A stretch of 64,000 bases of DNA from Opeltia flavorubescens (lineage: Eukaryota > Ascomycota > Lecanoromycetes > Teloschistales > Teloschistaceae): the NCBI GenBank assembly GCA_000442125.1, contig KE546975.1, forward strand, positions 434,001 to 498,000. The letters run 5' to 3'. Every line of letters starts with the position of its first letter. Positions within the stretch are counted from its first letter, which is position 1. Under the pieces are notes generated by a model. That model was not told the origin of the DNA. It was given only the letters and a program-made list of their open reading frames with translations, and did not search any database. Below are positions 24,234 through 58,164 of the stretch, piece by piece. The translations under genes and the position numbers were made by a program.

Positions 24234-27200
24234 ATGTACCGCTATCCTATCTCCATCTTCAATTTCTTCATCTATGTCACCATCTTGCTGAGCAAGACGA
24301 CTCAGGCCCAGAGTCCGGACAAAGATACTGCGAATGCCCCATCCGCTGCAGGTGCAACGGCAGCTCCGCTACCCTCACAGACTAGCCCAGGAGTGATTGA
24401 AATTAGTGGAACAACTACTACGTTCCGTCCTATCTTCACTGTGCCAACGGAGGCTGATGTTGGTGAATCTTTGATTCCAAACATCAACGATCCCAATGCT
24501 ACAGACGCTCAAGCTGCTTGCCCTGGATATAATGCATTGAACGTGGAACGAACGGACCACGGGTTTACTGCAACCCTAAACCTGGCGGGACCAGCTTGTA
24601 ATGTATACGGTACCGACGTCGAAATCTTGAACTTGACGGTGGAGTATCAATCTACGGATCGCTTGTCCGTCCGAGTGATTCCGGCCTATATCGACAGCTC
24701 GAATAGCTCACATTTCATCCTACCAACAGAGCTGGTGCATCAACCTACAGTCGATGCCAATGCAGAGAGCTCTTCATTAACCAGCGATCTGGGTTTCGTC
24801 TGGAGCAACGATCCAACGTTCTCCTTCAGCGTCTTTCGGAAAAGTACAGGGGACATGCTCTTCTCCACCAAAGGAACCAAGCTTGTCTATGAAAACCAAT
24901 TCATTGAATTTGCCTCGACTTTGCCAGAGAATTACAACCTCTACGGCTTAGGGGAGAGCATACACGGGCTCAGACTCGGTAATAGTAGGTCTACCCAAAA
25001 GCAATCGCATCCAAAGCCGCCTAGAATATCTTATTCAATGCTACACCATAAGTTTTTCTATCCATCTCGGGCATAAAATGCCGTCTCTGGTCTCAGGCGC
25101 TGACCGTTGGGAACTCAGATTTCACTAAAACCATGTGGGCCGCTGATGTTGGCGATCCGATTGATCTCAATATCTATGGCTCTCATCCGTTCTACCTGGA
25201 CACCAGATATTACGGAGTTGATCCGTCAACAGGGGTTTTGACACTAGTGACGAGCAACCACACCAACACAACTACCGACTATGTCGCATACTCCCATGGC
25301 GTTTACAATAGAAATGCTCATGGCCAAGAGATACTCCTTCGGCCAACAAACATCACATGGCGTTTATTGGGGGGCAGCATTGACTTATATTTTTATGCTG
25401 GTCCAACCCAGCCAGACGTCACCACAGCGTTCCAGACAAGTGCAATTGGATTACCAGCATTGCAACAATACTTCACTTTTGGTTTCCACCAGTGCAGGTG
25501 GGGGTATGCTTCTTGGCCACAATTGCAAGAAGTGGTCGATAGTTATGAGCGTTTTGGTATACCCCTGGAGAACATTTGGGTAAGCCAAGCGCACTGGAGC
25601 AAGTGGCAAGTTTAGGCTAACGCTACACGCATAGACGGATATTGATTATATGAACCAAGTCAGTCACACTATCGTGGAGCGTATTGTTGCCTTTCCTTAC
25701 TGATCGTAGATATCAGTACCGCGACTTTGACAACGATCCCCTCAGATATAATTACACCGAAGGCAAGAATTTTCTATCGAATCTGCACGCAGGGGGAAGG
25801 CATTACATCCCAATTATTGACTCCGCCATTTACGTACCGAATCCTGAAAATGCTAGTGATGCGTATGTATATTCCGTTGGAGGCTGTATCAGAGCTGAAT
25901 TAATGATAGGTACCCAACCTTCAACCGCGGCAACGACACGCACTCTTTCTTGACTAATCCCGATGGCAGTCTCTACATTGGCTCTGTCTGGCCAGGATAT
26001 ACCGCGTTTCCGGACTGGCTTGGAAGCGGTGCTGGTCCATGGTGGTCAAATGAAATGGTTACGTGGCATAATCTCGTTGCTTTCGATGGTGCATGGATCG
26101 ATATGAGCGAGGTCTCGTCCTTCTGCGTGGGTTCGTGCGGAACCGGCAACATCACCATGAATCCAGTAATCTCTTTCATTCCAATCTCGATATGAAAAAG
26201 CTGAGTTCGAAATTATCTTAGGTACATCCCCCGTTCAGACTCCCTGGGGAACCTGGCGCGGTTATTTACGAGTATCCGGAGGGTTTCAATTTGACCAATG
26301 CGACCGAGGCGGCGTCTGCAGCTTCTGCATCCTCTAGTCAAGTGGCTGCTTCAAGTACTGCCGGTTCTTCTTCGACCATGCCTAACTACCTGAGGACGAC
26401 CCCTACCCCTGGCGTTCGAGATGTCAACTATCCACCCTATGTGATCAACAATGTTCAGGTATAAACGATTGTTCATCTACCAATGTGTTCTTACTAATTC
26501 GTGATTGCGTAGGGTGACCTGGCTGTTCATGCTGTCTCCCCAAACGCAACGCATGCCGATGGGACGGAGGAGTACGACGGTGAGTAATTCTCCGGGTGAT
26601 GGTTCTCCAAAGTAAAATATCGGATGAGTCCCAAGACATGTGCCCGTTCTTTCGATTTAGTCCATGAGGAAATACTGACTCCAAGACTTGCTTTAGTGCA
26701 CAACCTGTTCGGCTTTCAAATCCTCAATGCTACCTACAACGCTTTACTTGCTGCCATGCCTGGCAAACGTCCTTTTATCATTGGGAGGTCTACATTTTCA
26801 GGCGCCGGCAAATGGGCTGGACATTGGGGAGGTGACAACTACAGCCTTTGGGCTTACATGTTCTTCTCAATCCCTCAGGCGCTTAGCTTCTCTCTCTTCG
26901 GCATTCCAATGTTTGGGGTCGACACCTGTGGCTTCAACGGTAACTCGGATGAGGAACTCTGTAACCGCTGGATGCAACTCAGCGCGTTCTTCCCATTTTA
27001 CCGAAATCACAACACCCTCACCGCCAATCCTCAAGAAGCGTACGTCTGGGCCAGCGTCGCTGAAGCTTCACGCACTGCTATGAACATCCGCTATAGCATC
27101 CTCCCTTACATGTACACTCTCTTCTATCTCGCTCACAATACCGGCTCCACGGTCATGCGTGCCTTGNCCTGGGAATTTCCCAACGATCCGTCCCTCGCAG

Positions 27201-27826
27201 CAGCGGATCGCCAGTTCTTCCTAGGCCCAGCCATCCTAGTGACCCCTGTCCTTGCGCAAGGTGCTACCAACGTCTCTGGTGTCTTTCCTGGGGCGGGAGG
27301 GCTTGGAGAAGTCTACTATGACTGGTATACCCTTTCCGCTCAGGACGTCTCATCCCCACGTGCCAACATTACCATCGACGCTCCGCTTGGACACATTCCC
27401 GTATACCTACGGGGAGGATACGTCATCCCCACGCAGGAACCTGCTATGACAATCAGGGATGCGAGGAGAAACCCGTGGGGCGTGATAGCCGCGCTAAGCT
27501 TGGAAGGAACAGCGCAGGGGTCTTTGTACATTGACGATGGAGAGAGTGTAGTCCAAGAGAATGGAACGCTCTTTGTGGAATTCACGGCTAGCGGTAATGC
27601 ACTATATGCTAGTGCGAGGGGCACGTGGAATGATACTAATCCGCTGGCAAATGTCACGGTACTGGGGGTGCAGGAAAGTGTCAGTACTGTGAGCTTGAAT
27701 GGAGCGAGCGTGGATGAGGGGAATGTGCGATATAATGACACGAGCAAGGCATTGGTGGTGGATGGGTTGGGTGGATTGACGAGTGGCGGGGCTTGGAAAG
27801 AGGATTGGGTTTTGAGATGGAGTTGA
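24234..27826 (+). CDS. Secreted GH31 alpha-glucosidase
   Basis: Eight exons (24234-24984, 25119-25579, 25635-25658, 25717-25862, 25910-26165, 26222-26458, 26513-26579, 26697-27826) give 1023 aa. Residues 1-26 are a signal peptide ending in TQAQ; the ATG at 24234 sits in CACCATG. The GH31 N-terminal beta-sandwich contains YGLGESIHGLR and YGSHPFYLDTRY. In the catalytic barrel, the nucleophile is Asp about 525 in AWIDMSE and the acid/base Asp about 694 in HWGGDNYS; FGFHQCRWGY and the exon-3 DIDYM are also family marks. Many N-x-S/T sites fit secretion. It releases glucose from the non-reducing ends of maltose, starch oligomers or similar substrates. Exon 3 is only 24 nt. The last intron (26580-26696) belongs to the repeated intron family described separately. 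One N at 27167 affects a single codon. Confidence 0.93.
26580..26696 (+). repeat. Introner-like element, copy A (GH31 intron 7)
   Basis: A 117-bp intron, phase 1, GTGAGT..TTTAG, branch ACTGAC. It aligns end to end with introns at 50710-50825, 53622-53737 and (minus) 57977-58092. Shared blocks include GGATGAGTCC, AGACATGTG, TTCTTTC, TCCATGAG and CTGACTCCAAGA. Other introns of the same gene are 47-58 bp, except intron 1 (134 bp), which is unrelated. Confidence 0.85.
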
Positions 27827-28075
27827 GAGAAGAACAGAGGAAAGCCCTCGAGAGGAAGGCACATTATAATGATGATGACGATGATGATGTATATTTGGTC
27901 TCACCCAAAAGACCACGATGGATTTCTTACCACCCCTGTCATGCATACGACGCAATACGCCTTTTCCTATTTAGCCGTCCTTGAGCTCCCCTAAGTCATC
28001 CATTATACATCATACACGTCTTATACAATATATTGATTTCCAACCAATAAACCACCTACCAGATTCGTAAACCAG

Positions 28076-30601
28076 TTACTCCGTCTCTTCCTCCCACCTC
28101 TCCTTCTCAGCCTTCATCAATCGCTCCATAACCCCTTCCGCAAACACCGTACCCTTCCCTTTGAATTGCAAGCCCCCGCCCACCTCGCCATCGAAAACAG
28201 GACTGATCATATCCACCCACTTCTGTCTTCTCGCCATCAACTGCCTCGCCAAATCCCCAATCCCAGGCTTACTAACACCCACCGCATCACCGCCCGCGCC
28301 ATTCACGTTGGCGGGATGGGACCCTCCACCCGCACCGCCAGGCCTCTTGATATTCTTCTTCGATTTACCTAGCGTGCGCGTGCGTTTGAGATAAGCTTGC
28401 TGTACCTGTCCGTCCAAGTCGTCGAGAATGGTGCTGTATTCCTGATACGCCATCCGCTCGTTTGCAAATTCCAGGACCCTGGCTTTGCGGGCTCCGTTCT
28501 CAAGGGAGACCCGGCGGAGTTCCTCTTGCAGCATACGAAGTCGTTCTGCAACTTCGTCATCGTAGTGGGCATCATAGTCGGGCTCGCTGTTGTCCGGGGC
28601 CAGGAAACCAATGTAGCGGAGTTCTTGCTTGAGGCGGTCGTCGATGGTGGCGGCGTCCATTTTAATGTTACTATTGGCGGATTGGCGCCAAGACGGAAGG
28701 GAGGACTCAGGCATGTAAGTAGCAGGGGGGAGGGTGGTGGAAGGGGGTTTTGGTCCTGGCTGTTGGGAAGAGGGTTCATCGTTATTATTTTCGGTTGTTC
28801 CGTTCGTGTTGTCGCCATTCAGAACGCCATTAGACATAGGTACGTCACTGTTAGTGGTTGAATTGCCGTTTGATCTATTGTCGTCCGACGGAGAGGGACG
28901 GTTTTCAAACCGCATAGTTGAAAGGAGGCGGTTCAATAATGGGCCATTCGATATCTGGTCGGTCTCGGCGATATCGTCAGTCATTTGCTCGAGGTTACCG
29001 CGGGGTTGATTAGGAGGTAGTCTGTCCTTGTCGCTGTGATTGCTATCAAGGGAGAACTGGCCATCTTCTTCCGCCCAAATTTCAGTGTAATGTCGTTTCC
29101 CCCGTCGTGGCATTACGAACGGCGCGACCCGGTCACCCTTTGGTCGATCAGCATCTGGAATACAGTAACCTTGATGATTTAAACTTACACGCTCCTTCAA
29201 GAACGCCATATCTTCCTCTGTGAGAGGTCGGAGATAAGGGTCGATGTATGCTTGAAAAGTATTCGCATTGACTTGATTCGAAGGTTTTGCGTTGCTGAAG
29301 TCCTTGTCCGGTATGGTACCTGCGATAAGGTGACTTAAGTCGCTGTGGGGAAATTGAGCAACACTATAAATTTCGGCCTTCTCTAGGTCCGTCATGTCGT
29401 CGGTGACTTCACGAATATGGTAGATGGTGGGGTCATCAAATGTGGTGGGATCGGGACCGAATGTTTGGTATTGGGCAATACTAGCTGCTGGAGGAGGCTG
29501 ATGAGACTCGGTAGAGCTTGTTGAGGAAGCTCGAGATTTTCGCGGCGATTTTGGCTCTTCCGTTAGGCGTCCGTTCGTTGGGGATGGGGGCTGTGAGGTC
29601 GACGAAAGGGAGGATGAGCTGACTGCGTCAAGCTTTCGCTTCGGTGAAGATGTGCTTTCTTTAATGCTCTCGACGGGATCTAGCTTTGTGTCAGCAAGTT
29701 CGATCTTTGCCTTGCTCTCTTTCTCGATCGCTTGAAATATCTCCTCTAAAGTCTTTTTGCCGTGATAAGTATTTGCGAACGAGGCCCGACGAGACGAGCG
29801 AAGGCTTGAGCCAAGTAACGATGACCGCTCCATCTCACGACAAGGTAAAGAGAAGATGAATTCTACAGATGGGTGGTATAAGGGGGAAATGGGACGTCTC
29901 TACACGCTTACGCAAACAGACTGGGAAGAGGCTGAACAGGATATACCCGAATAGCTGTCAATCTTGCAGACAGAAGAGAATAGCCACTGCGAATGTCAAT
30001 ATAGTCTCAGTTACTAACCTTGTGGTGAAAGACCCAGTCCGTCCTGCCTCGCCACTCCATGAGCGCCGACTGCCAAGGGTCGCTCCTCCCGGACACTACT
30101 TCGCTCTTTCTTCACCTTTTTAGTCTTGAGACTCTTCCGACCTCTTACTTCCTCGTCCTCGGCCACCCTTTTCAAGCTTGCCTTCTCTTTCTCTTTCTCT
30201 TTTTCTCTCTCCTTTTCCTCTCTATCGCGATTCTCACGCTCCAGCCGGTGGTCATCCTCGACTCGTTCTTTCCGCCGCTTGGAGAGCTCCCGCATACCTC
30301 CATCACAAGTTGTCCCTCTTTCCTCGGCCAGCTGACCTAGCATTTTCAAATTATCGACCATGGAATTCAGGCTAGCAGGATCAGGAATACCCTGACCGCC
30401 ACCATGCTGGTTGAGTAAATGCTCATATGTGACATTGACCGGAACCATAAGATTGCTCAGATCAATATTAAGATAAGCAGTGTGCGAAGGGTTGTTTGAG
30501 CTGATGGGTATGCTAATGTTGGAGATTGGAGTGGTGTTTCGACTTCGAGAGCGGCGGCCATCGCGGCTTTTGGCCTTGCCGGTTCCACTCAATTGTGGCA
30601 T
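28076..30601 (-). CDS. NGG1: Ngg1/Ada3, SAGA histone acetyltransferase complex subunit
   Basis: Minus-strand exons 30019-30601, 29189-29862 and 28076-29137 give 772 aa. The N-terminal region has SRSRNTTP, a conserved helical stretch (MVPVNVTYEHLL, LKMLGQLAEE), then MRELSKRRKERV and a charged coiled-coil-like block. The middle is Ser-rich; FGPDPTTFDDPTIYHIREV and FSNAKPSNQVNANTF are family landmarks. The C-terminal Ada3 domain includes LKQELRYIGFL, DDEVAERLRMLQEELR and LARQLMARRQKWV. Ngg1 links Gcn5 and Ada2 in SAGA/ADA for nucleosome acetylation. Two points on structure: the 51-bp intron at 29138-29188 has no stop and is a multiple of three, so it hides in the open frame; removing it restores LKERGDRVAPF. 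The first intron (156 bp) is long and its acceptor is less certain. Confidence 0.87.
29138..29188 (-). other. In-frame 51-bp intron hidden in the NGG1 open frame
   Basis: The segment starts GTAAGT, has a GCTGAT branch 13 bases before AAG, and encodes 17 residues (VSLNHQGYC..) that interrupt a normally continuous LKER-GDRV stretch. An ORF-only annotation would wrongly translate it. Retention would leave the frame intact. Confidence 0.75.
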
Positions 30602-31293
30602 CCTCAAGTCGATTTCCAGATGTTTTTAAGGAATCATCAAGTGGAAAAATAAAGTCAGTGAACTTTGACGTACAAACGAATCGGATTTGATCGAGATGAT
30701 TCAGTTTTGAGTTTGAGTGTTGTCTTACTGACTCGGAATAGATGAGGATGGATGGAGAGAGGAGAGAGAGAGAAAAGCGGGAAGGTTATGTGATCAGATA
30801 TGGTGGGAACTTGCTCATATTGTGCTTGGTTAGCCGCCCACTGCAACGGTAAGATCCGACAAATGTCTCGCTAGGATCGGCATTTGGTAGGAGGCAGAAA
30901 GCTGAACAGTTCTAATGTTCAGATGCGTAGTTTCGTTGATTGCAAAGCTGATTGGAGAAGAAAATTGAAGATGGAAATAGAGTAGACACAGCTGGAGGAT
31001 AGCTGGGATCCAAGCTGGCTAGGCGATACGGGTTAATCGGGTGTATCCTTATCAGGAACAAGCATTGGATTGACACACGCCGCCACCAGAGAACGCATGA
31101 CGGCTCCGACGGCGTTCCACGTATGTCCCTGTACTCCACCGCGCTCATGCTGTGTTCATTCGGACACCAACGGTTCGTTGCATACACTCGTTCCATTTCC
31201 AAGCACCCTCCCGCCTGATTTGGGTATTCAACTCGAATTATGCGGTATTGGTGTTGATTGTGTAACCTGAGCATTGCGCTCATCTCTATTGCC
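30602..31293. promoter_or_regulatory. Divergent promoter, NGG1 / RING-H2 gene
   Basis: About 690 bp between two head-to-head starts. A purine tract of GAGAGAG type lies around 30755-30777, on the NGG1 side. No other motif was recognised and no gene fits here. Confidence 0.4.
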
Positions 31294-33287: not shown

Positions 33288-33756
33288 ATGTCTCGTCACA
33301 TTGCGTTGGGAAGGAAATTTGTAGTATACAGCTGGTTGTATTGTCTCGTGTTCTCAATGTTGGATTGGATTGGCAGCGCTGGCGTTGGCTGGAATCGAGG
33401 GACATGAAAGATGTAAGACTTCAGGCACTTAAGGAGGATGGCAATCTATATATGAGGCGCCATTGTATCTCTTCTGTGCCAGCAATGGATTGTATATAAC
33501 GCAACGTGGTATAGAAGGACCAAGCATTGGTTTTGCATTTCATTTGATCTTACTTGACAGAGCCCAGGGGTATCTATGAGTCATCCTACACATCAAAAGC
33601 TTCGAGTTGCCCTTCCAATTCGTAAGCCCCAAAACTCCTTTTCCTCCAGCCATCATCATGTAAGTATTGGCCTGCCAATGCTTTCAAAGTTCCCTATGCC
33701 CAGATCTAAATTCCAAGGTGATTTCTCTCCGCAGCAAGAACGCCATCTAGTGATCA
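33288..33756. other. Convergent 3' flanks of RING-H2 and Trk genes
   Basis: About 470 bp between facing stop codons. It holds both 3' UTRs. The short frame at 33576-33806 runs into the Trk 3' end and is not supported. Confidence 0.4.
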
Positions 33757-45721: not shown

Positions 45722-46268
45722 GTTGTTTCTCTCCACTGATAACGTCGCAACGTAAGTACATGAGCTGAGACGCGCACAAGATTTGGTCGTTACCGTATCA
45801 GCATTGACCATATAGTTGCCGGTTGGTTAATAGAAGTATCTTGCTTTTGGGGCATGCAAATAATGGTTACGTGCGGAGGGATTTTTTGTAATCCTCTATA
45901 AATCAGACCGCTGTATCACAGAGCTTGGCATTCAGGGGTCACCCCGTCACGAGTATGATTTGGAAGAAAGACAAGCTTATTAATTCCACAACATCATTTT
46001 GGATATTTTCAGAAGGTTAGAGAACGGACATGTGCTGTAAAGTTGCGTACCACCTGGCTCTGTTTAATTCTAGATCAGATTATTACAAGTTAGTAAAATG
46101 ACTTTCTATGGTTGCATCTCATCTAAGAAAAACTTGGCTGTAAGAAGTATATATCTATCAGATCTAGTGATCAGCCTGTATTTAGTATTTTGATTGCTGT
46201 GTTTTTTACACATTAGATAGGCAGAATGACAAGTCTGATTCAACACATTCAGCGTGTGCTTAGATAGC
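45722..46268. other. AT-rich intergenic stretch upstream of VPS28
   Basis: About 550 bp, visibly richer in A/T than its surroundings from about 45900. It holds the VPS28 promoter and the 3' flank of the Rok1 gene. No frames of note. Confidence 0.4.
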
Positions 46269-48518
46269 CTAGGATGACATTCTTATCGACTTATCAGCTT
46301 CCTCGTCCTCTATACCTACCCATTCCTCATCTGGGTTTTCTGTCAACGACTGGCGCTGAAGGACTGCGGCAGCTCCCTTCCTGTTGTGCTCTAATTTTCG
46401 ATCATACCCACTCTTAGTGCTGATTCGCATACATCTTGCTGCTTTTCCGTCATCGTCGCCGGTTATGGCCGCCCTTCGAGCTTCGACACCCCTTTGCTTC
46501 AAAGTTTTTCTGCTTTTCTTGGAAACGTTCGGTAAGGCATTCAAGAGCCACTCCTTTGGTGCTCTACCTTGGCCAGCGCCTACTAAATTTTCTTTCTGTC
46601 TCTCACTCGCGGCAATGACGTTGGCCACGTTCTTGACGTACTTGATATCCTCTTTGGTATAAAGAGTTAATGCGACTCCGCCTTCTCGGCCCTGCCTTCC
46701 AGTCCGACCTACCCGATGAATATAGATGCCACTGGTGTTCGGAATATCATAGTTGATGACTCCGTTGACACCACGAAAGTCTACACCGCGAGCGAGCAAA
46801 TCGGTCGTAACGAGAATCCATACCTCGCCTTTCCGAAAGCCTGCCATGATTGCCGCGCGCGTCTTGTCAGATAACTCAGAATGAAGAACGGCAATCCGGG
46901 AGGAACCACCAGCTTCAACTGGTACCTCATAAAGGAGTTCGGAATGAAGAGCTACCGCTCTTGAGATAGTCTGGGTAAATACCAGGAAAGGAGGCTGGAG
47001 CGACGGTCCGCTGGGAATACCACTCACCGCTGGATTGATCAGTTGGCGCAGCGCCATAAGCTTACCTCGTTCTGTAGCACAGTACACAAGCTGATGGGAG
47101 ACATTGGAGACCGCGGAGTCCTTCATGCCAATGACCAAACGAATAATGTAATGCTGCGGGTTCCGAACCGCCAGCCCCAGCTTTCGCTGGCGATCGAGGA
47201 TAAAATCTTGCGCTAGAGATTCGACGGACGAGCCAATGGTTGCTGACCAAAGTGAAGTTTGTAAATTGACATTCTTACAAGAATTCCATATATCAAGTGT
47301 CTGGTGACGGAATAATGGATCAAGCAAGATATCGGCCTCGTCTAGCACAAGATACCGGATGGCAGCTAGCGAGAGTTCAGGCGATGGTGCTACAGCGTGA
47401 AGGAGTAGCATCGGAGTGCTGACAAGGATATCAGCCGTGATGATGGATGACTTCCGAGGCTCATCATATAAGCTGTCATGGATTGCCACCTTAGGCGTGT
47501 CTTTCTTCCCAGCCTCGCCACTCAAAATTCTGTCCGAAAAAACCTTCATGCCCTTCCTCACACGTGATATTCTGATCCCCGTCCCAGACCCAAGCTTTCT
47601 TCCTTCGTTGAGTATCTGGTCAACGAGTTCATGAGTAGGTGCTAAGATGAGGGCCTTGGGAGATCTCCTTTCGACTTCTGATTCCTGTGTGGTCTGAGCT
47701 GGATGATGCTGCTTTCGCAGGCCGTGTATTAGGTGAATTAAGAAAGCTAAAGTCTTCCCGCTCCCAGTAGGAGCAATAGTGAGAAGATCAATCTGAGAGC
47801 GGTAGCATGTAGTGCATCCCTTCGTGTCTTCCAGATGTAAGCCTCGATCATCGTCGCTACCCAATAGGATTGGTATAGCTCCCAGCTGAACTTCCGTTGG
47901 AATTGTATAGCCTTGGGAATCTAGATTGAACAAAAGCTGTCTAGACACGTGATACTCTGGGTCCAAAGAATAGAATGAGTGTAGTGGTCGCGATGTCAAT
48001 TGAATACGAGCTTTTTTTGCATGAGCGCTGCTGTCTTCTGATCTTCGACAAAGACGCTTGTGTGTGCGCTGACACTCGTCGTCATCCCCGGATGCAGCTG
48101 CAAGCAACGTAACTTTAATTCTGTTCTGTTTCAGTACCCTCCTCCATTCTCCTCGATCGAACGTATCGGCGTTCGTGACTACCCCCAAAGGCTCCTTGTG
48201 GCGGCCGATGACATCTTCCGTACTTGTGAGTGTTTCGTCGGATCTCGCAATGTGACCTCCGTCAAGATCAATCGATGTGCCTCTATCCTGATCTATCAAA
48301 GAAAATCGAAGAATCCGAGTGCCATGTGCTGAAGATCTCTTCCGCTTTTTGCCTTTGCCAGAGAGGCTAGCTATCTCACTGAGATGAACGTTCTTTTGCG
48401 AGTCGGTCTCCACATCTTCGAAGCTAACTGCAGAGGGAACTTTCGGAGCCCTTATGACTCTGGACGAAGTAGATTTGGGCAATTTAGTTGACCTTGACAG
48501 CAGCCTGAAAGGATCCAT
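46269..48518 (-). CDS. ROK1: DEAD-box RNA helicase Rok1
   Basis: A single intronless frame of 749 aa. It has a basic, Ser-rich N-terminal extension of about 190 residues, then the helicase core: Q-motif region (GYTIPTEVQ), motif I APTGSGKT at 249-256, Ia-like ILAPTHELVDQI, motif II DEAD at about 393-396, motif III SAT, then HSELSDKTRAAIMAGFRKG, TTDLLARGVDF and motif VI HRVGRTGRQG. Rok1 is needed for processing of 18S rRNA precursor in the small-subunit processome in the nucleolus. An acidic tail follows a basic KSRKTLKQRG segment. Assignment to Rok1 rather than another DEAD helicase rests on the long N terminus and the conserved spacing of PLHSFYSLD before the Q motif. Odd: one of the few intronless long genes here. 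Confidence 0.88.
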   Translation of the reverse strand: MDPFRLLSRSTKLPKSTSSRVIRAPKVPSAVSFEDVETDSQKNVHLSEIASLSGKGKKRKRSSAHGTRILRFSLIDQDRGTSIDLDGGHIARSDETLTSTEDVIGRHKEPLGVVTNADTFDRGEWRRVLKQNRIKVTLLAAASGDDDECQRTHKRLCRRSEDSSAHAKKARIQLTSRPLHSFYSLDPEYHVSRQLLFNLDSQGYTIPTEVQLGAIPILLGSDDDRGLHLEDTKGCTTCYRSQIDLLTIAPTGSGKTLAFLIHLIHGLRKQHHPAQTTQESEVERRSPKALILAPTHELVDQILNEGRKLGSGTGIRISRVRKGMKVFSDRILSGEAGKKDTPKVAIHDSLYDEPRKSSIITADILVSTPMLLLHAVAPSPELSLAAIRYLVLDEADILLDPLFRHQTLDIWNSCKNVNLQTSLWSATIGSSVESLAQDFILDRQRKLGLAVRNPQHYIIRLVIGMKDSAVSNVSHQLVYCATERGKLMALRQLINPAVSGIPSGPSLQPPFLVFTQTISRAVALHSELLYEVPVEAGGSSRIAVLHSELSDKTRAAIMAGFRKGEVWILVTTDLLARGVDFRGVNGVINYDIPNTSGIYIHRVGRTGRQGREGGVALTLYTKEDIKYVKNVANVIAASERQKENLVGAGQGRAPKEWLLNALPNVSKKSRKTLKQRGVEARRAAITGDDDGKAARCMRISTKSGYDRKLEHNRKGAAAVLQRQSLTENPDEEWVGIEDEEADKSIRMSS

Positions 48519-49178
48519 GTGTACCAGCTTATGGTTTTATTTCACTTGACAAACTATCGACAATCGAGCTAAGACGATAAAACGCTAGACCGGCTCGACC
48601 GGGTATCCTTAACCGATGGCCCCCAGCGAACTTGATTGGATATCCGGATTACAAGACACTAAAATGAACATGAAATTGCTGGATCTAGATATTCACACAG
48701 TACTGAAGCAGAAGAGCCGCGGGGGAGCTCTTCACGTCAGAGATGTGCAAAGCTGTCTGATAGATTTCCAGCGCCAAGATGTCAAAATGCTAGTCTTTGT
48801 CTACTCTAATTTGCCGTCAGAATCTTGCTAGGACCTGATAGGTCCAAATTCTTGGCAGTGCGGACGAAATCACCGATATTGCGTGGGATATACCAAAGAA
48901 TAGCACTCCTGAATAGATTTATGATTGAGTAGTCAATCCGGGTTAGGACCTCAACATCACGCAATTTTCCAGGCAAAGGAATTATACATTGAAATGACAT
49001 GGCGCTATCTCAAACTGTTGTACATTATTGTTTGTCTATGATGAAGACTTATGTGCAGAAGAGGAACTCTCAGCTCTGCCAAAGCCGCTGGTCTATCTCA
49101 ATGCTGTGATAACCTCGCCAGGCGTTTATGGAATATGGGGCAGACACGGCTGCGTTAAAGCTCTCGAATGTTCTTTGA
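48519..49178. other. Intergenic stretch upstream of ROK1 with a small hypothetical frame
   Basis: 660 bp between two minus-strand genes. A plus-strand ATG frame of 71 aa at 48616-48831 (APSELDWISGLQDTK..) begins head-to-head with ROK1, about 100 bp away. Another frame of 72 codons lies at 49028-49246. I do not recognise either protein, and found no convincing splice joining them. Confidence 0.35.
48616..48831 (+). CDS. Small hypothetical protein, 71 aa
   Basis: An ATG-to-stop frame without recognised domain. Text is helix-prone in the middle (MNMKLLDLDIHTVL) and looks protein-like rather than low complexity. It may be the first exon of a small gene divergent from ROK1, or chance. No signal peptide or membrane segment. 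Confidence 0.2.
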   Translation: MAPSELDWISGLQDTKMNMKLLDLDIHTVLKQKSRGGALHVRDVQSCLIDFQRQDVKMLVFVYSNLPSESC

Positions 49179-50063
49179 TCAATGATTCTCCTCTACTCCC
49201 TTGTACCCTACAATCTTCATCCTTCCAAGCATCTCTCCAACAGTAAAGAATCCCAGCACTTCGGCAGCAACGACGCCAGCAGATGCCAATTGCTGTGAAT
49301 TGAGATGCCTCATACGTGTGAGAAGATTGCTAGAAGTGGCAGAGCTTGAAGTGCTAGCTCGGTCAAGTAACATCGCGGGATGCCGGACTACGCGCATTAG
49401 GGGCTGTGTATATGCCTGGAAAGCTTGGAGGTTCCTAGATATCAAGTGTCAGTCGAATTTTGCCAGCTTCAGATACCAGTTGGCAGTAAGCCCTTGAGGT
49501 GATTGCATGCTTACGGTGGACTCATCTTCTGTCCTCTGAAAACAATCTTCGACAACTCGAAACCGACCCTCGAATAATAGACTGCTGGAGGTATCAGTGC
49601 TGTTCTAGGGTTAGCGTATCCGCAAGACAATCGTTGGCTGGTTCACAGGTGCCGTTCGAGTTTGACGAGAAGATACTTGGTCAGATGGTGTGAGAGAGCG
49701 CGCCAGCGGTCATGATCAACGCTTTCAAAGGACACTATAAATTCTGAAGAACAATTTATGGAAATCTTCGGTGAACTTACATTCGATGAAGGAAATAAGC
49801 CTACCAGTGCGTCCACCAATCCCTCCTAGTGCACTGGAGACCTTTTGCGCTGCTCCACTGAGGGCTGGTCCAGCGGTCGATGTTACTCTAGATAGGCCCT
49901 GTGAAGCTTTGGAAGTCGCATTGGATGCTGCTTCTCTTGACTTGCTGGCGGTGCTTGCTGCTGCGTCGGTAGCTTGAGAAGTGGTTGAAGCTTGCCGTTG
50001 AGCGCTCAAACGGCTGAAGGCGCGGGCTTGACGGAGCATCAATCGATTCGGTGCGGCGGACAT
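49179..50063 (-). CDS. ATP20: Mitochondrial F1Fo-ATP synthase subunit g
   Basis: Minus-strand exons 49781-50063, 49515-49599 and 49179-49434 give 207 aa. The first 95 residues are Ala/Ser/Arg-rich, beginning with a mitochondrial presequence (NRLMLRQARAFSRLSAQRQ). The subunit g domain follows: FIESLIPPAVYYSRVGFELSKIVF, MSPPNLQAFQAYTQPLMR, and the C-terminal membrane helix with a GxxxG motif (VGEMLGRMKIVGYKG). Subunit g sits in the membrane part of ATP synthase and, with subunit e, supports dimer formation and cristae shape. The first intron is 181 bp, the longest here, with a CTAAC branch; its interior has no resemblance to the 116-bp intron family. The gene is head-to-head with Rab4, 349 bp apart. 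Confidence 0.9.
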
Positions 50064-50412
50064 TTGAGAAGAGTGGCCCCAGATGAGGGTTGAGAAAGAG
50101 CTAAAGTTAGCTGAAGGTCGGCAAAGCTCAGTCGACAAAACAGATTTTCCGCAGGAGCGGCTACGTTCTGATTGGCCCAAAAAGCCTCCGAGACGTATGC
50201 CCACCAAGTTTACTTCAACAACCGCAGATCCAGGTAGGCTTGCGGATCTATCAGTGAAACGTATATGATCTATTGAGATTAAGTATTTGGCTATGGTTCG
50301 ACCTCATTGTGACTCGATGAATACGAATGGCTCCTCACCAGAAGTTGGACTCTTCCTTTGCTGAACGTACAAGCAAGGGCTGACGAATTATCTTGTATAG
50401 GAGCTCGGGAGT
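50064..50412. promoter_or_regulatory. Divergent promoter, ATP20 / Rab4
   Basis: 349 bp between two starts facing away from each other, so both promoters lie here. No TATA box or named motif recognised. Confidence 0.4.
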
Positions 50413-51579
50413 ATGTACGACTACCTCGCCAAGGTAATTCTTCTAGGACCTAGTGGATGTGGAAAGTGCGTTACGCATCAGAGCAGTCACCGAAGACTCG
50501 GGCTCATGTTGCGGCAGATCGTGCCTCCTGCATCGGCTTGTTAAGGATGAATGTATGCCAGATTAAGACATCCTGATTGGTCATTATCCAACTCACTGTC
50601 GACGAGGGAGAATTTTGTCATCTCAGACTATTGGCGTCGAGTTCGCGTCCAAAATCATCAAGGTTGGCACGGGCACAGGGCGCAAACGAATCAAATTACA
50701 GCTATGGGAGTGAGTAGTATTCCAAGCGATGATTGTCTAAATTAAGATATCTTATGAGTCCGGATACATGTGATTGCTCTTTCTGTTTACTCCGATAAGA
50801 AATGCTGACTTCGAAATTTATTTAGTACCGCAGGGACCGAACGCTTTCGCTCCGTCTCTCGATCATACTACCGTGGCGCAGCTGCAGCACTACTTGTGTA
50901 CGATCTGTCTTCTCGTGATACTTTTCTGGGCCTTCCGAGTTTTCTCAACGACGCACGCGCTCTCACATCGCCCGATCTGGTTGTATTGCTGGCTGGTAAT
51001 AAACTGGACCTGACGTCCGAAAACCCTGAAAATTGGCACACCAAAAACACGACACCTTTGACGCCTTTAAATTTATCCAGCCAGCACTCTACACGATCTG
51101 GTGACTTCGGCAGTGCTGGTAGCACAAGACGAGGAAATGGTAGCTTTGGTCATTCTCCACTGCCTTTCAACATGGATACATTTCATACAGCCACATTAGC
51201 AACCGAGGAAGGGCGTCAGGTTAGTCAGGAGGAGGCGGCTCGGTGGGCTTCCAGGTCATCTATTCCCGTATCAAAAGAAGTCAGCGCATATACCGGCGAC
51301 GGTGTCGAAGAGCTCTTCGCGCAACTTGCACGAATCATCTTAACTAAGATCGAACTCGGTGAAATTGACCCGGATGATCCATTGAGCGGTATACAGTACG
51401 GAGATAGCGGTGGTTGGACGGATGATGGCAGTATGAAGAGCGGGACTACGATTGGTGATGGCGGCCGCAGAAGATCTAGGGGACGAAGACAGGGCGGTCA
51501 ATGGCGGAAAGGAATAAGGGAATGGGAAGCGGTGTTCAGGCTCGACAGTCTTGGAAACAGAAGAGGGGGGTGCTGTTAA
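50413..51579 (+). CDS. Rab4/Ypt4-like small GTPase
   Basis: Exons 50413-50465, 50518-50552, 50607-50709 and 50826-51579 give 314 aa. GTP-binding motifs are complete: P-loop GPSGCGKS at 10-17, split by intron 1; switch I/G2 SSQTIGVEF; G3 WDTAGTERF, split by intron 3; RabF text SYYRGAAAALLVYD; G4 NKLD; G5 region SAYTGDGV. The C terminus ends in GGCC, a double-geranylgeranylation signal. FASKII and the overall pattern best match Rab4 (S. pombe Ypt4), which works in endosome recycling. It is longer than a usual Rab (about 210 aa) because of Gly/Ser-rich inserts near 220-240 and 340-end equivalents after G4 and before the tail. Intron 3 (50710-50825) is a member of the repeated intron family. Confidence 0.9.
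50710..50825 (+). repeat. Introner-like element, copy C (Rab4 intron 3)
   Basis: A 116-bp intron, phase 2, GTGAGT..TTTAG, branch CTGAC. By hand count it matches the copy at 57977-58092 (minus) at about 87 of 116 aligned positions without gaps. Shared blocks include TTCCAAGCGATGATT, TATGAGTCC, CTCTTTCTGTTTACTC and AAATGCTGAC. The other introns of this gene are 52-54 bp. Confidence 0.88.
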
Positions 51580-52646
51580 CTTGATCAGAATTCGCGGCTC
51601 AGTCCAGGATGCGGGAAGCATTTATCATGATTTAAACTATCCCGAACTACGCTCCAAGATGGCGTCTCGGACCGTTGGATTCCAAGAACTCGTCGTCAAC
51701 ACCAGGACGGATGCGGTCATGTATTTCTGGGGTCCAAATTGGACCTTCGACACATAGGAGCTGGCACTTGCAGCACTCATACCTCCGAGACGTGGTAAGG
51801 TTTGCTGGAAGATTCGCGCTTTTTGACCCGGTTTCTCCCAGCCATTACAGCATTCCTGATTCTTGTTGGGAGGATAATGTTGAGAAGTCAACAACAGCAG
51901 CATTGTATCAACTGTTCGATATTTGAGGCGCTTTGGGTGCGAGCCGATTGCTAGAACGTACCATAACAAGGGCCGTGACATCGATCTCCATCCTTGCTCA
52001 CTCGATCAGGTAAGCAGGCCACAAACTCCACAAACCCTTTCTATGGGTTTTAGACTGAGTCGAAAAGCTCATGATAACAGGATTATTAGGCTTCAAAGTT
52101 TGTTGATGTCAGGAGGAGAAGTTCAGACAGTCGTTACGGTCATCCTTGAAATTGACTGTCGATTAATGAAAAATGTGATTTTGCAATGAAAGACCCTTTG
52201 CAGCTACAACCAATATTTGCTGCTCACTATCGAGCAGTACTACCTAGTCACACCATTTTAGACTCAGATCCTAATGTAATCACGACCACTCATATCCAAA
52301 TCATAGACTCGATCTTCAACAACCCGTTCATCGTGACCTGTCATTGGAGCAGCCGAGAATCAGAAAACACGATGTTCTTGGCGCTTGCCGCGGCTGATTG
52401 CATCACCAATTGCTCGCTCTGTCCGACTGTTCCCCTCCAGTATCATAAGATCAGTGCTGCGGGAAAAGTCATCTGACTATTTCATCCAATGCTATCACAC
52501 CATTGACTAAGACCAGTACAGTCGAACATTTAAGCAAATTTTCAGCCTCTACACCAGGAGCTTAGTGAGCTGACTTAATCACTAGATTACCCAACAGAAA
52601 GGTGGACGTATATAATATAATTCACCTCAGCGCCGGCCGTCCCTCG
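51580..52646. other. Intergenic stretch between Rab4 and GH2 genes
   Basis: About 1.07 kb. It holds the Rab4 3' UTR and the GH2 promoter. The 114-codon minus frame 51637-51981 and plus frames at 51923-52476 show no domain. No gene is supported. Confidence 0.4.
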
Positions 52647-55600
52647 ATGACGAAACCGGAGCAAATAGCGTCAACGCTCACTGCTATCCCTTTGAATGCT
52701 GGGTGGGTCTTTCGACAGGCTGGCGTGGTCGAAGGCAAGTGGATGCCAGTTTCACAATTTCCCACAAATGTTCATCTCGATTTGATCTATAATCATGTCA
52801 TACCTGATCCGTACATTGCAAAAAACGAAACAGATGTTCAATGGGTCGGTGAGCAGTCGTGGGTCTACAAGACCAATTTCCAGCTATCTACTCTCTCGTC
52901 TCCGCGAAAGGCCGTTTTAGAATTTGATGGCCTCGATACTCATGCCACTGTATTTCTCAATGGCCGAAAGATTATTCAAACAGAAGACATGTTCATTCCA
53001 GAACGTGTAGACGTAACTGAAAATATAAGAATCTCGACCGGGAATGAGCTTGAGATCGTGTTCGAGAGCACTTATCTTATTGGCAAGAAGCTAGTCGAGG
53101 CTCACCCAAAGCACAAATATGGATGTTGGAACGGTACGTATTTTGTAGCGTTGAACGTTCGAACCATCTTAGACAGGCCTCGCAGCTAGACATGACCGAT
53201 CTCATCTTCTACGCTACTTCAAAGCCGTTGACCATATGATGCATGTATTTAGGTGACCCTTCGCGGCTCGCTGTCCGCAAAGCACAGTATCAATATGTAT
53301 GTGGATTCCTAAAATTCATGATGGCCATTGATCGGTGTTTCTAGGGATGGGACTGGGGTCCTGCCCTCTTGACTTGCGGACCGTGGCGACCAATTAGTCT
53401 AGAGTTGTACACGTCTCGCATTGAAGAGCTTTTCTTCATGACGCAAGTCGATAGATCACTCGAATGGGCGGAGATAATTCCAAAGTGCAAGATCGAGGGT
53501 GACGCAACTGAAGTCGAATTCGAGATCTTGTTGAACGGTAAGAAGGTGACACGTCAGATTGTAAGAGTGGTAGGAGGGTTCGCATCTGCTCTTCTAAGGA
53601 CGCAGAAGCCTGAGTTGTGGTGTGAGTAATCTCTGAGCCATAAACCCTCAATGCACAATATTGGATGAGTTCCGAGACATATGGCCGCTCTTTCTGTTTA
53701 CTCCATGTGAAAATGCTGACTCCGAGATTTGCTTTAGATCCAGCAAGATATGGCAAGCAGCCTCTATATGACCTTAAAGCTACACTTTTCGATGAGCACA
53801 ACGTTCTAGACGCAAAGAACAGGCGTTTCGGACTTCGACGAGCAGAAGTCATTCAACGGCAGCTTGATGATGTGGCAGGCACCACTTTCTTCTTTCAAAT
53901 CAATAACATTCCTATATTTTGCGGTGGGAGTAACTGGATTCCAGCAGACTCATTTATTCCAAAGATCAAACCGTCAAGGTATCGAGATTGGATAAAGCTT
54001 GCTGTCGAAGATAATCAGAGTATGATCCGAATTTGGGGTGGTGGTATATTTGAAGAACAGCAATTTTATGATGCCTGTGACGAATCGGGTGCGTGAATTC
54101 TGAGCATCGTCAGTACCGAACAAAAGCTAACACGGCAGGTCTGCCAGGTATCTTGGTCTGGCAAGACTTCATGTTTGCTTGTGGAAATTACCCAGCACAT
54201 GATGGATTTCTAGACCTCGTAAAGCGTGAAGCAACTGCCAATGTCAAACGCTTGCGGCACCACCCGTGTATAGTCATATGGGCAGGCAACAATGAAGACT
54301 ACCAATACCGAGAGACCGAAAGGCTCGAATATGATCCAGGGGATCTGGATCCAAACAACTGGTTGAAATCAAATTTCCCGGCAAGATACATATATGAGAA
54401 AATTCTTGTGGATGTCACTCGAGAGCTGGTTCCGGACACTTATTACCACTATGGCTCACCATATGGAGGCAAAGATACGACTGACCCCACGATTGGCGAC
54501 ATCCATCAATGGAACGGTAAATTATTACGTAGCCAGAGGTTGCTTAGAAAGGAAATGCTGATGGGAGATAGTCTGGCACGGAACGCAAGAAAGATACCAG
54601 GCATGGGACAAGCTCTGCGGCCGTTTTGTCGCAGAATTTGGCATGGAAGCCTTCCCCTCGGTCGAAACCATTGATAGCTACCTCGTAAACGGCAACGAAG
54701 ACCCGGAAAGACACACTCAGTCTTCAATTGTAGACTTCCACAACAAAGCTCTGGGCGGCGAGCGAAGATTAGCGACCTACCTTGTCGAGAATATTCCTTA
54801 TAGCCATTTCCCGTTCGACTACTATATCTACTGCACCCAGCTCATGCAATCAGAATGCGTAGCAACAGCGTTTCGGCTCTGGAAAAGAGAATGGAAAGGG
54901 CCCGGTCGAGAGCATTGCGGTGGCGCTCTGGTCTGGCAAATGAATGACTGCTGGCCTACACAGTCTTGGTCAATCGTTGACTACTACCTGAGACCCAAAC
55001 TTGCTTACTTCACAATTAAGCGCGAACTGGCGAACATTTCTATCAACATGAACAGATCGGTCGAGGAGATTCCAGCGAATGATTACACACATGCGTACAT
55101 CAAAAAAATCCATAAAGTACAGCTCTTTGGCACAAATCTGCATTTACAAGACCGCAAATACTTAGTCCATGTTCAAGCGTGGGACCTCGAAGCTGGAAGG
55201 GCAATTTCAGTAGAAAGTCCTCGTGACCCTGTGGAATTCAACCGCAACCGGAGCACTGAAATCGCCGAGTGTAAGCTCGGAGACAGCAGAGATGAAGCCC
55301 GCATTGTCATCGCCGCGAACCTGCTGGATCTAAATGACGGTAGCAGTGTCGCGCGTTCGGTGAATTGGCCTGAACCCTTGAAGTACGTGCATTTACCAAA
55401 GCCCAAAAATCTTCGCATGGAAATCAAATCTACGGTGAATGGCAACGTTATTGAATTGAAAGCCGAAGTTCCCGTGAAAGGCGTTGCGCTAGAGACAAGT
55501 GGTGCCGATGGAGACAGTGTCGTCCTCGAAGATAACTGTGTCGACCTCTTCCCAGGCGAGACTGTCCAGATAGGGGTAAGAGGCTTAGCAGTAGGGGAAG

Positions 55601-55647
55601 AGCATAGGGTTTCCATGAAGTATCTGAAGGCAGCCGTAGACCTATGA
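52647..55647 (+). CDS. GH2 beta-mannosidase, intracellular type
   Basis: Exons 52647-53133, 53253-53296, 53345-53621, 53738-54088, 54139-54516 and 54572-55647 give 870 aa. There is no signal peptide, as in fungal MndB-type enzymes. The sugar-binding domain contains EFDGLDTHATVFLNG; the join of exons 2 and 3 gives YQYGWDWGP. The catalytic barrel has GGSNWIPADSF, MIRIWGGGIFE, acid/base Glu about 439 in WAGNNED, HQWNVWHG (across intron 5) and the nucleophile Glu about 534 in VAEFGMEAFP, then ALVWQMNDCWP. It removes terminal beta-mannose from manno-oligosaccharides or N-glycan cores in the cytosol. Intron 3 (53622-53737) belongs to the repeated intron family; intron 1 (119 bp) is also long and may be a worn relative. 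Confidence 0.93.
53622..53737 (+). repeat. Introner-like element, copy B (GH2 intron 3)
   Basis: A 116-bp intron, phase 1, GTGAGT..TTTAG, branch CTGAC. Nearly identical to copy A over the 3' half: GGATGAGT, GAGACAT, CTCTTTCTGTTTACTCC, ATGCTGACTCCGAGA and TTGCTTTAG. Splicing it restores ELWYPARYG. The 5' third (positions 10-38) is the most diverged part. Confidence 0.88.
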
Positions 55648-56289
55648 ACTTCTTCTGGGTCGTTGGAGATTGCAGTTGCCCCTAACACCATTCGTGTATA
55701 TGAGATGTCCTAGTCGAACATGTCCAAAGGAACATTCGAAGAATTGACTACCGAATGATTTTCTATCCTTAAACATCCTACTCAAGAATTCGTACATGTT
55801 GAAAATGGCAATTGACTTTATATTATGTAATAGTCGACCCAGTCGGTCTTGTTTTATTGTCGCGAGTATTCTTGCTCGAACCTTCAATCAAATCTCCGCC
55901 GGATCTTGAGTGTCCAAGAGGTTTTCCACCGGCTTGTGAGTAAAATCGTAGAGAGCGTAACTCAAAATCTTACAACGTGTGAGATCTCTAGACAAGGAGA
56001 CAAGCTAGGGATTACAACGTGCCAGTCACAGCAGATGGCATGATCATTATTCATGGACTCTAAGTAAAGTAGCATGTAAAGTAAAAGCTAACAAGAATCG
56101 GCCGTACCCAGTTTCCCTGTGGTAATTTCACCCTGTTGCGCGCTTTACATTGCATCAATGCCTGGGCACATCCTACAGGCTTAATCTGACCTCTCGCATC
56201 GACTGCCACGGGGGTATACGTCCGCGTGCGTTGGGGTGTTTTGAGTCGATTAGAAAGGATCACACCAACTAGCAGTTGTTCCAAATGTC
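55648..56289. other. Convergent 3' flanks of GH2 and GFA genes
   Basis: About 640 bp between facing stop codons. Only short frames. No gene or repeat is supported. Confidence 0.4.
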
Positions 56290-56829
56290 TCATTTCTGTG
56301 CTTTCTCCCACTCCTGAAGCTTTTGCTCAAGCTCATCGGAAAACCTGTCCCATCGCTTTACACCGTCCTCTGCTATCGCATGCCACGCGGGCTTCTGTCC
56401 CAAAAATATATGTTCCGTCACCTGCATGACGGCCCCTTTCAGACTCTCCTCATCGATCGTGCCGGCGGCAATCCCAATGCTTGCACCTCCCCAATGATAC
56501 ATCATCGTTATAGAAGACCCGCAGCTCTTGCACACCGAGCGGGTAGCAATGGACGAAGAGAGCGGTTTGAGTGCGCAATTGGTGGAAGAGATTTCGCTGT
56601 TGCCGTCGGAGGAAGGAAGGAGTTGAAAAGATGAGGTGGGGATATCCGTCCATGCTATGAAAGGAGCGCCCGATAGGCGTTGGCAAGTGATACAATAACA
56701 ATATGTCAAATTCTGTGGTGTTTTTGTGCTCGTATATCGGACAGAGCCGCACGAGCAACCGCCCGTGAAGGCGATGTTAGTAGAAGGTGAATTTTCATCG
56801 GTGACTGCCATGTTGTTTGAGTGGCGCAT
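56290..56829 (-). CDS. GFA-domain protein (glutathione-dependent formaldehyde-activating enzyme/CENP-V-like)
   Basis: An intronless frame of 179 aa. The zinc-binding GFA fold is evident from cysteines C25 and C27 (GGCSCGSVRY), C44, C46 and C49 (CYCITCQRLSGAPF), and C100 and C103 (CKSCGSS). The family was named for an enzyme that speeds joining of formaldehyde to glutathione, but most members, including many fungal paralogues, have no proven reaction. No dehydrogenase partner of the formaldehyde pathway is beside it, so I would not assign that role. The ATG at 56829 is the longest choice; Met7 is an alternative. A helical Lys/Glu tail ends the protein. Confidence 0.85.
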   Translation of the reverse strand: MRHSNNMAVTDENSPSTNIAFTGGCSCGSVRYTSTKTPQNLTYCYCITCQRLSGAPFIAWTDIPTSSFQLLPSSDGNSEISSTNCALKPLSSSIATRSVCKSCGSSITMMYHWGGASIGIAAGTIDEESLKGAVMQVTEHIFLGQKPAWHAIAEDGVKRWDRFSDELEQKLQEWEKAQK

Positions 56830-57328
56830 GAATATTGATGGTTCTACGCTGGACTAGCGGACGGTAGATGTGTAGATTACATGAAGTCAAGGGGGTACTT
56901 TTCATGCGAGGTTAAAGTTGTTGATCGAACGATACTGTAGTGCTACAATCGGGTTGATGCCAAGTGTCACAATTGGAAGACGGCGATTCCAGACGAAGTT
57001 TGGATTGCCAAAAATCTTACAATAGCATCCGAGGGTAAAGACGTCAATGGCAACACCTGTAATGGATGATGCTACAAAATGCCTCTGCAGTGTCATCTGG
57101 TATCTGCTGCTTGAAGCTCATCCAATGCCATTGGTCTTGATGTCGAAGCCAAACCCTTCCACTCCCTGTATATGCAACCGAAAACGGTAGTCCAACGCCG
57201 GGAATTTCTGCTGATAATTGACAAACTTCCAAGCTCTCAGTGCCAAATGGAGAACCAGACTACTAGAGCGCAACCATCAAGAAATGCATGATCAGATATT
57301 CCTTCCATTATCCCTTTCAAATAGTCAA
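56830..57328. other. Intergenic stretch upstream of the GFA gene
   Basis: About 500 bp between two minus-strand genes, holding the GFA promoter and the 3' flank of the Arg/His-rich gene. Short frames only. Confidence 0.4.
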
Positions 57329-58164
57329 TTATCGCCGCCTAGGAACAATTCTCTGCACATGCGGACCATTTCCCGGCAATAGGTCGTCAAAGGAATCATG
57401 ACTGCTCCCGTAAATAACCGGACTTCTACCCCTTCTCCTTCGATCGTAATCCCTCCAGCTTTCACGGTCGTCCGAGTAAATCGATGTACCGGAATGATGG
57501 CGATGATGCGATCTTCCCCGTGATCGACTTCTGCCATGGCGAACGTTACTAGGCATCCGTGACCGCGGCCGCACTTCAATGACGTTTGGACGTGGGTGGA
57601 ATTCTTCAATGCGCTCGATGCCCTCAGGAAGGCCTTCGTGCGGGCGGTGCATTATCCGCGGGTGTTCGTGGTGTGCTATCATGCCCGGCGGAGGAGGTGG
57701 CGGTGGGGGCCCATGGTGTTGATGGGCCATCTCGATTTCATGTCTCCTTCGCTGCTGGTCCTCCCACATCAGACGATGCTGGAGTTCCTGATTCTGCCCT
57801 TGGAGATGACGCATGTATTGTTCTTGCTGCTGGAGAACCAGAGGATCGTGCCTTTCTCGCATCTCTTCGCGGATGGGGCGCGTTTGGTGGAAGGAGGAAT
57901 AGACGAGGGCATGATCATCGGAGGAGCTACGGGTGCTGCTACGCTCGCGGACAAAATTGAGACGCCTTCGACGAGGCTAAGGAGAACTCAGAGTTAGCAT
58001 TTCTGATTAGAGTAAACAGAAAGAGTGGACACATGTCTCAAGACTTATAAGGTAGTTTACTTTGGGGAATCATCGCTCGGAAAGCTACTCACTTCACGGG
58101 GATCATTGGTCCGGGGGTATCGTTCCTCGATCTCTAGACCACCATCTAGCCTTGGCCAACACAT
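57329..58164 (-). CDS. Arg/His-rich hypothetical protein
   Basis: Two minus-strand exons, 58093-58164 and 57329-57976, give 239 aa from the ATG at 58164. I do not recognise the family. The protein is highly charged: an RRRRLNFVRERS stretch, a Gln-rich coiled-coil-like segment (LVLQQQEQYMRHLQGQNQELQHRL), a run of eight prolines before GMIAHHEH, then SRSRGRSHHRHHSG and RRRRGRSP, ending in PRRR. The Arg/Ser pairs recall RNA-binding SR-like proteins, but no RRM is seen. The frame stays open upstream of the chosen ATG for about 37 nt, to a TAA at about 58200, so more exons could exist 5'. Its intron (57977-58092) is a member of the repeated intron family and joins the exons in phase 0. Confidence 0.6.
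57977..58092 (-). repeat. Introner-like element, copy D (Arg/His-rich gene intron)
   Basis: A 116-bp intron read on the minus strand, phase 0, GTGAGT..CTTAG, branch GCTAAC. Shared blocks with the other copies: TTCCGAGCGATGATT, CCAAAGTAAA, GAGACATGTG, CTCTTTCTGTTTACTC and AAATGCTAAC. In this copy AGTAAAC near position 32 can pair with GTTTACT near position 76, hinting at a hairpin. Confidence 0.88.

Follow-up and report, generated by a model that had tools for sequence, protein, structure and literature searches.

Where new spliceosomal introns come from has long been asked, and in fungi the cases described in the literature consulted come mainly from Dothideomycetes and Xylariales. How do four unrelated genes within one short chromosomal region of a lichen-forming ascomycete come to carry nearly the same intron? 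The 64,000-nucleotide stretch that raises this question, hereafter the window, comes from Opeltia flavorubescens (contig KE546975.1, positions 434,001 to 498,000, or C11:434001-498000 in our numbering of the 34.4-Mb genome in 23 contigs). We propose that its four introns, A to D, are members of one family of spliceosomal introner-like elements (ILEs) that has multiplied by copying, a reading to which we assign a probability of roughly 0.87. ILEs are reportedly familiar from Dothideomycetes, as in the work of van der Burgt in 2012; the present family places a known kind of element in a new host class, the Lecanoromycetes, an assignment that is well supported and extends the phenomenon to another class.

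The four introns of the window and their splicing

Candidate ILE copies and their host genes are the following.

26580-26696, plus strand: ILE copy A, 117 nt, phase 1, in the GH31 alpha-glucosidase gene; site uninterrupted in 117 of the 120 best matches
50710-50825, plus strand: ILE copy B, 116 nt, phase 2, in the Rab4-type GTPase gene (LQLW/DTAG, the slash marking the splice); database protein P0001 equals the spliced product
53622-53737, plus strand: ILE copy C, 116 nt, phase 1, in the GH2 beta-mannosidase gene (KPELW/YPARYG); the source of protein P0189 has the element at the same site
57977-58092, minus strand: ILE copy D, 116 nt, phase 0, in the gene for an Arg/His-rich protein
24900-27826, plus strand: GH31 alpha-glucosidase gene, host of A; 5' limit approximate
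50317-51579, plus strand: Rab4-type GTPase gene, host of B; four introns, B among them
52569-55647, plus strand: GH2 beta-mannosidase gene, host of C; both limits approximate
57329-58200, minus strand: Arg/His-rich protein gene, host of D; 5' limit approximate

All four introns start with GTGAGTA, end in TTTAG or CTTAG and align almost without gaps, with end-to-end identities of 70.7% (A-B), 76.7% (A-C), 70.7% (A-D), 67.0% (B-C), 75.0% (B-D) and 70.4% (C-D). A profile built from A-D gives 98-104 bits on these four in the window, the next best among the 16 matches listed reaching 10.4 bits, and a 17-base block, CTCTTTCTGTTTACTCC, occurs twice in the genome, in B and in C. A preliminary description of this DNA had reported four homologous introns here; all lie where it put them, 67-77% identical from donor to acceptor, and its phases (1, 2, 1, 0) and its claim that splicing restores the frames proved correct on re-reading. 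Its hand count of about 75% identity for C and D must be lowered to the computed 70.4%, 75.0% being the value for B and D, and of the block CTCTTTCTGTTTACTC that it listed as shared, B, C and D hold the exact sequence and A only a variant.

Removal of A-D joins open frames, and reading through any of them meets a stop within 1-11 codons. The Rab4 junction left by B reads LQLW/DTAGTERF and the GH2 junction left by C reads KPELW/YPARYG. P0001 matches the spliced Rab4 product of the window exon by exon, with four introns out, including B; because other entries with its source label (lgn) look like intron-unaware open reading frames (ORFs) that start within the intron preceding B, the simplest reading of P0001 is that it derives from a transcript. 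Judged from these frames and junctions, the copies appear to be canonical GT-AG spliceosomal introns of about 116 nt whose removal restores the frame, longer than seven regular introns from two genes, which measure 47-57 nt. A branch-point motif is present in 38 of 42 copies from the whole genome, and in 34 of these its A is placed 16-18 nt from the intron end, a gap that leaves room for the 3' arm of the hairpin described below.

A family dispersed through the genome

The preliminary description had named a genome-wide search as a test that could refute the family; the search found at least 46 places, and the family stands. A first consensus, drawn from A-D, retrieved 22 copies (E 7e-40 to 6e-10), and a refined consensus gave 37 matches, of which two are fragments of a single copy. 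Pattern searches agree: a 20-base core with at most 3 mismatches matched 23 times against 1 for the reversed control, a 25-base 3' pattern 20 times and a 25-base 5' pattern 25 times, each against 0. A profile scan of the fetched loci recovered 43 places at E 0.005 or better, to which C19:46076, C12:874291 and C12:1318060 were added. The resulting 46 is a lower bound on places; two of them, C17:893576 and C17:893849, lie in a second gene copy, so that at most 44 separate insertions are represented. Splice analysis covered 40 of the 43 places (three have no clear end), site tests 36 of 42 copies and an alignment 31 full-length copies; C19:46076 is in no alignment.

The copies are 56-87% identical to the consensus, with a pairwise median of 70%, and form a star-like tree with long tips and weak inner support. 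The best pair, C1:420765 and C8:355669, is 97.4% identical and has flanks unlike each other, which argues for recent activity of the family. At least four introns alike to near both boundaries thus lie in non-paralogous genes, as in the broad definition of introners given in passages of PMC9860276.

The host genes speak both for splicing and for the independence of the copies. Of 40 spliced ORFs made, 20 were submitted to Pfam, and in 18 a domain spans the junction, the families including AMP-binding, epimerase, peptidase M19, MFS, NmrA-like, DHODH, P450, SIR2, GH2, GH31, S1-P1 nuclease, CARME, FmdA_AmdA, amino-acid permease, sugar transporter, Ras and fungal rhodopsin; in one further ORF a WSC domain lies just beside it. 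The open frame across the splice is longer in the sense than in the antisense direction in 35 of 40 copies, with 2 ties. These differing Pfam families, together with the flank comparison that follows, leave duplication of intron-carrying genes or segments with almost no probability as the origin of the family. When 600-base flanks of the 43 places were compared by BLAST at E 1e-3 (the three later-found places are outside this set), the matches, besides copies within one gene, came to two sets, and no other gene matched. One set is a C17 gene near 860-861 kb with its copy near 893 kb, of which C17:891273 is a partial relative, and here duplication does hold; the other is a pair of transporter paralogues, C1:723154 and C6:1724357, and yet their family introns stand about 10 nt apart (by eye). 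Gene duplication is therefore refuted as the explanation of the family as a whole, with its mostly unrelated hosts, and accounts for the C17 gene copy alone. The introns of the two sugar-transporter genes may be parallel gains at nearby sites.

The second copy of the C17 gene (C17:892001-895000) bears the marks of repeat-induced point mutation (RIP) or something like it: 336 of its 433 mismatches are C>T or G>A, GC falls from 0.447 to 0.227, and its ILEs have mutated along with the gene. RIP acting on the ILE copies themselves was considered and rejected, as no type of transition predominates among them (C>T 151, G>A 145, A>G 145, T>C 139); the element may escape mutation of this type owing to its shortness.

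Copies are unevenly spread. At 46 per genome, 0.09 copies are expected per 64 kb, and the window holds four full copies and one truncated copy, a local concentration. Genome-wide, 26 of 40 sites lie less than 100 kb from another, where 8.1 +/- 3.3 would be expected, or 14.9 +/- 3.8 were no more than 17 Mb available. Local copying was rejected as the cause: neighbours within 100 kb are on average no more alike (identity 0.706 over 24 pairs) than distant copies (0.699; permutation p 0.31). Since, in addition, the four C17 copies in one gene sit on different, weakly supported branches, a regional or gene preference fits the clustering better, although two close neighbour pairs tell against it (C8:355669/435949 at 90% and C17:860146/891273 at 86%). 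That C17 gene, C17:860146-861120, is a hot spot for insertion: within about 1 kb it holds four ILEs, which belong to different branches, and a further ILE sits in its partial paralogue at C17:891 kb. Among neighbouring ILE pairs on C1, C3, C5, C11 and C12, five are 22-24 kb apart and four others 77-82 kb, a post hoc pattern that may be chance. No copy was found on C2, C4, C10, C14, C15, C18 or C20-C23, of which C2, C4 and C10 do give matches in other searches; contig coverage was controlled by an MFS family search (a poor control, with 9 of 255 candidates scored) and by a pattern control. By estimate C2, C4, C10, C14 and C15 total roughly 9 Mb, on which several copies would be expected.

The fifth, truncated copy in the window shares the host gene of A.

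26166-26221, plus strand: truncated intron of 56 nt derived from an ILE, in which the 3' half of the element is used with an internal GT as donor; in the same GH31 gene as A

Its alignment scores against the element are 40-49, compared with 18-22 for shuffles (0 of 500 as high), and a regular intron of the same gene, used as a control, shows no such excess. Three GH31 homologues read through the site. By profile alone this copy is marginal (10.4 bits; nhmmer E 0.32; no match with default filters). Shortened copies of 76 and 87 nt exist elsewhere in the genome, and truncated copies are a decay route into ordinary introns, as proposed for fungal ILEs.

Probable intron gain at the sites of A, B and C

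Continuity in relatives was tested at sites A, B and C. Among the best 120 protein matches per site, nothing separates the residues that flank the splice in 117 at A, 119 at B and 117 at C; with ncbi-labelled entries left out as possibly intron-aware gene models, and P0001 as the window's own product, the counts become 111 of 114, 78 of 79 and 110 of 113. At B, 69 of the 78 continuous ORFs lack the upstream Rab4 exons, as expected of intron-unaware ORFs, and 47 of the 110 at C start with MTCGPW or enter GWDWG from a short leader; these starts indicate that true introns do break these database ORFs. On this protein evidence A, B and C would occupy new intron positions, uninterrupted in the ORFs of relatives. 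The preliminary description's proposal of intron gain by copying is thus borne out, the copies running from splice site to splice site in mostly unrelated genes. In one GH31 homologue, P0264, some 41 additional residues stand near site A, which would fit the read-through of a different intron there.

Two of the sites can be dated, B being empty in one close relative and C filled in one. P0189, the GH2 protein of highest identity among the best 120 (83%), begins with MSPETRTHSCRLPNEDLLTPEIHL and continues with DPARYG. Its leader matches the translated ILE consensus, MSPETCTRSFRLLQEEMLTPKFT, with E 8e-5 among 360 fetched proteins, and 0 of 100,000 shuffles did as well; the insertion at C is therefore shared with the relative from which P0189 comes and was most likely gained before the two split. 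B is absent in P0002, at 87% identity. The best Rab4 matches that carry names belong to lichen fungi of the Teloschistaceae (Gyalolechia ehrenbergii, Seirophora, Caloplaca), and the present genome is accordingly not that of a Dothideomycete. The Rab4 intron upstream of B, where the relatives' ORFs begin, is about 100 nt from B and has been kept; its retention argues against a gain through recombination with a cDNA that lacked introns.

The same intron bears on a different account, in which the copies are old introns lost in relatives and made alike by gene conversion between introns. The protein data would accommodate loss at any single site, and yet the relatives' ORFs begin in this neighbouring upstream intron and lack B. 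We know of no process by which gene conversion among unrelated genes would place both ends exactly at splice sites, and we regard this account as very improbable.

Several observations weigh against a family multiplied by copying and spliced throughout. ORF continuity is a biased measure, as an intron-bearing gene would yield split ORFs that rank lower. The 46 places, with a median identity of 70%, compare poorly with the hundreds of near-identical copies of other ILEs. The host of D is the weakest gene model of the four, with no Pfam domain in its spliced ORF. Three of 40 copies have a longer open frame in antisense than in sense, and the shortened copies C3:782545, C1:1392581 and C17:860146 are open even unspliced, so that for these three the frame alone is no proof of splicing.

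The founder hairpin and a proposed route of spread

The consensus is predicted to fold into a single hairpin that spans bases 2 to 115 (-25 kcal/mol; z -2.27 against shuffles) and brings the unpaired G1 and final G next to each other. When each sequence is compared with its reverse complement, symmetry reaches z 4.4 in the consensus, in the form of imperfect terminal inverted repeats (TIRs), and averages 1.6 over 31 copies and 0.25 over 7 regular introns. Across the 31 copies 79.3% of cells pair, against 38-48% with partners slid. Mutating the consensus neutrally to the same divergence gives 79.2 +/- 1.2%, and copies farther from the consensus pair less (rho 0.51, p 0.004). A maintained RNA structure was rejected, as pairing equals neutral decay, although one of five covariation measures is high (31 double-change cells against 22.9 in shuffles, 11 of 500 as high). 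By this model the pairing appears to have been lost at the neutral rate and not kept up after insertion, so that the hairpin would mark the founder and is not clearly maintained thereafter. The family would in this way separate two things that are usually mixed: its hairpin would be a property of the mobile founder and would not be upheld by splicing.

This decay also bears on whether the shared sequence might be a conserved intronic RNA, such as a snoRNA or other structured RNA, in otherwise ordinary introns. The consensus does fold better than shuffles (z -2.3). The similarity, however, extends to both splice sites, the pairing decays as neutral drift predicts, and Rfam gave no match at gathering score in window positions 48000-60000, a scan that took in B, C and D and left A outside. 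We therefore consider a conserved intronic RNA almost certainly not the explanation.

Insertion has left few traces. No target-site duplication (TSD) rose above shuffled pairs, whether the two exon ends were compared with each other or with the ends of the intron (three registers, 36 copies), and just 3 of 36 copies have AG ahead of the donor. The consensus shows no CAG or TAG that could serve as an internal acceptor (by eye), and hence no nested intron. No longer parent element came to light, the two end patterns within 3 mismatches matching only family copies. These results speak to the possibility that the element is a short non-autonomous DNA transposon (a miniature inverted-repeat transposable element) whose inverted ends serve as splice sites and which a transposase moves, as in algal introners. 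Its terminally symmetrical consensus would suit such an element, and passages of PMC9860276 report signs of TSDs, TIRs or both in most introner families outside ascomycetes. Yet no flanking or internal bases are duplicated in 36 copies, both splice sites lie inside the element with none borrowed from a TSD, the coding frames favour the sense strand, and the end patterns lead to no longer parent. Transposition of this kind is thus unlikely, though it keeps appreciably more weight than the accounts set aside above.

We favour RNA-mediated re-insertion over DNA transposition, and think it somewhat probable that the excised intron RNA is the mobile form, re-entering transcribed exons directly in genomic DNA. 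The excised RNA would be kept closed and protected by the hairpin; it might enter transcribed exons by reverse splicing into an opened coding strand or by capture at a break; and the inserted RNA would then be copied into DNA. Each new copy would be spliced out silently and would later decay to an ordinary short intron. Our fuller picture is tentative, and we would not bet on all its parts holding at once: a sense-oriented, TSD-free intron with a founder hairpin may spread via its excised RNA, be too short for RIP and favour certain chromosomal neighbourhoods. Other findings pull away from RNA-mediated spread or from the significance of the hairpin. The RNA intermediate is putative, and a DNA mechanism that leaves no TSD would also fit; positions -1 and +1 most often hold G (15 of 36 each), which amounts to a weak site tendency; one of the 7 regular introns reaches a symmetry z of 2.8; and covariation is weak and mixed, with double changes in 17 pairs where shuffles give 14.2 (72 of 500 reach as many).

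Comparison with described systems sharpens the placement of the family. The ILEs of Dothideomycetes (Fulvia fulva, Dothistroma, Zymoseptoria), as portrayed in sections of PMC4457414 (Collemare 2015), resemble it: they too are canonical introns that have multiplied in unrelated genes, exceed regular introns in length and have a predicted structure, with several insertions in one attractive gene and decay into ordinary introns; the same sections give a much lower identity for the Dothistroma ILEs as well. In contrast, the present family belongs to lichen-forming Lecanoromycetes, numbers tens and not hundreds of copies, mostly degenerate, and shows no AG/GY preference. With the sister stwintrons and type-2 cropped sister introns of Hypoxylaceae and Xylariaceae it shares, according to portions of PMC8469720 and PMC12403724, a terminal inverted symmetry that joins the terminal Gs, a wide gap between branch point and acceptor holding the 3' repeat (PMC12403724), and seamless insertion in the coding strand with no TSD and a symmetry that fades in diverged copies. 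The present copies are nonetheless single canonical introns of 116 nt, against 184-207 nt for those stwintrons and 93 nt for the cropped intron in the same portions, and come from another class; identity with sister stwintrons was rejected because the consensus has no internal acceptor and removal of one GT-AG intron restores the frames. The algal DNA-transposon introners surveyed in PMC9860276 share, in the passages available, full-length similar introns in many genes and terminal complementarity, from which the present family differs in its lack of a TSD and of a borrowed splice site and in its sense-strand coding insertions. Those passages describe the ascomycete introner families as free of TIRs and TSDs, and our family agrees on TSDs and differs in its terminal symmetry.

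Titles and opening lines of abstracts yielded no report of introners in lichen fungi; PMC9860276 names Pezizomycotina and, in those parts of its text, no lichen species, and its supplement may list one. If the proposed route is true, the end-closing hairpin found in Xylariales stwintrons and in the present family would point to a shared need for fungal intron mobility across classes. Splicing and activity are directly testable, as portions of PMC9232553 report culture of Gyalolechia flavorubescens, probably the species at issue here, and RNA-seq from lichen resynthesis.

Two minor features of the window may be added. At 25580-25710 an apparent 24-nt microexon (TDIDYMNQ) lies between two introns, where homologues read through and have neither intron (by eye). 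Four single N bases stand in the window at 2512, 16255, 22173 and 27167, the last within the GH31 coding region.

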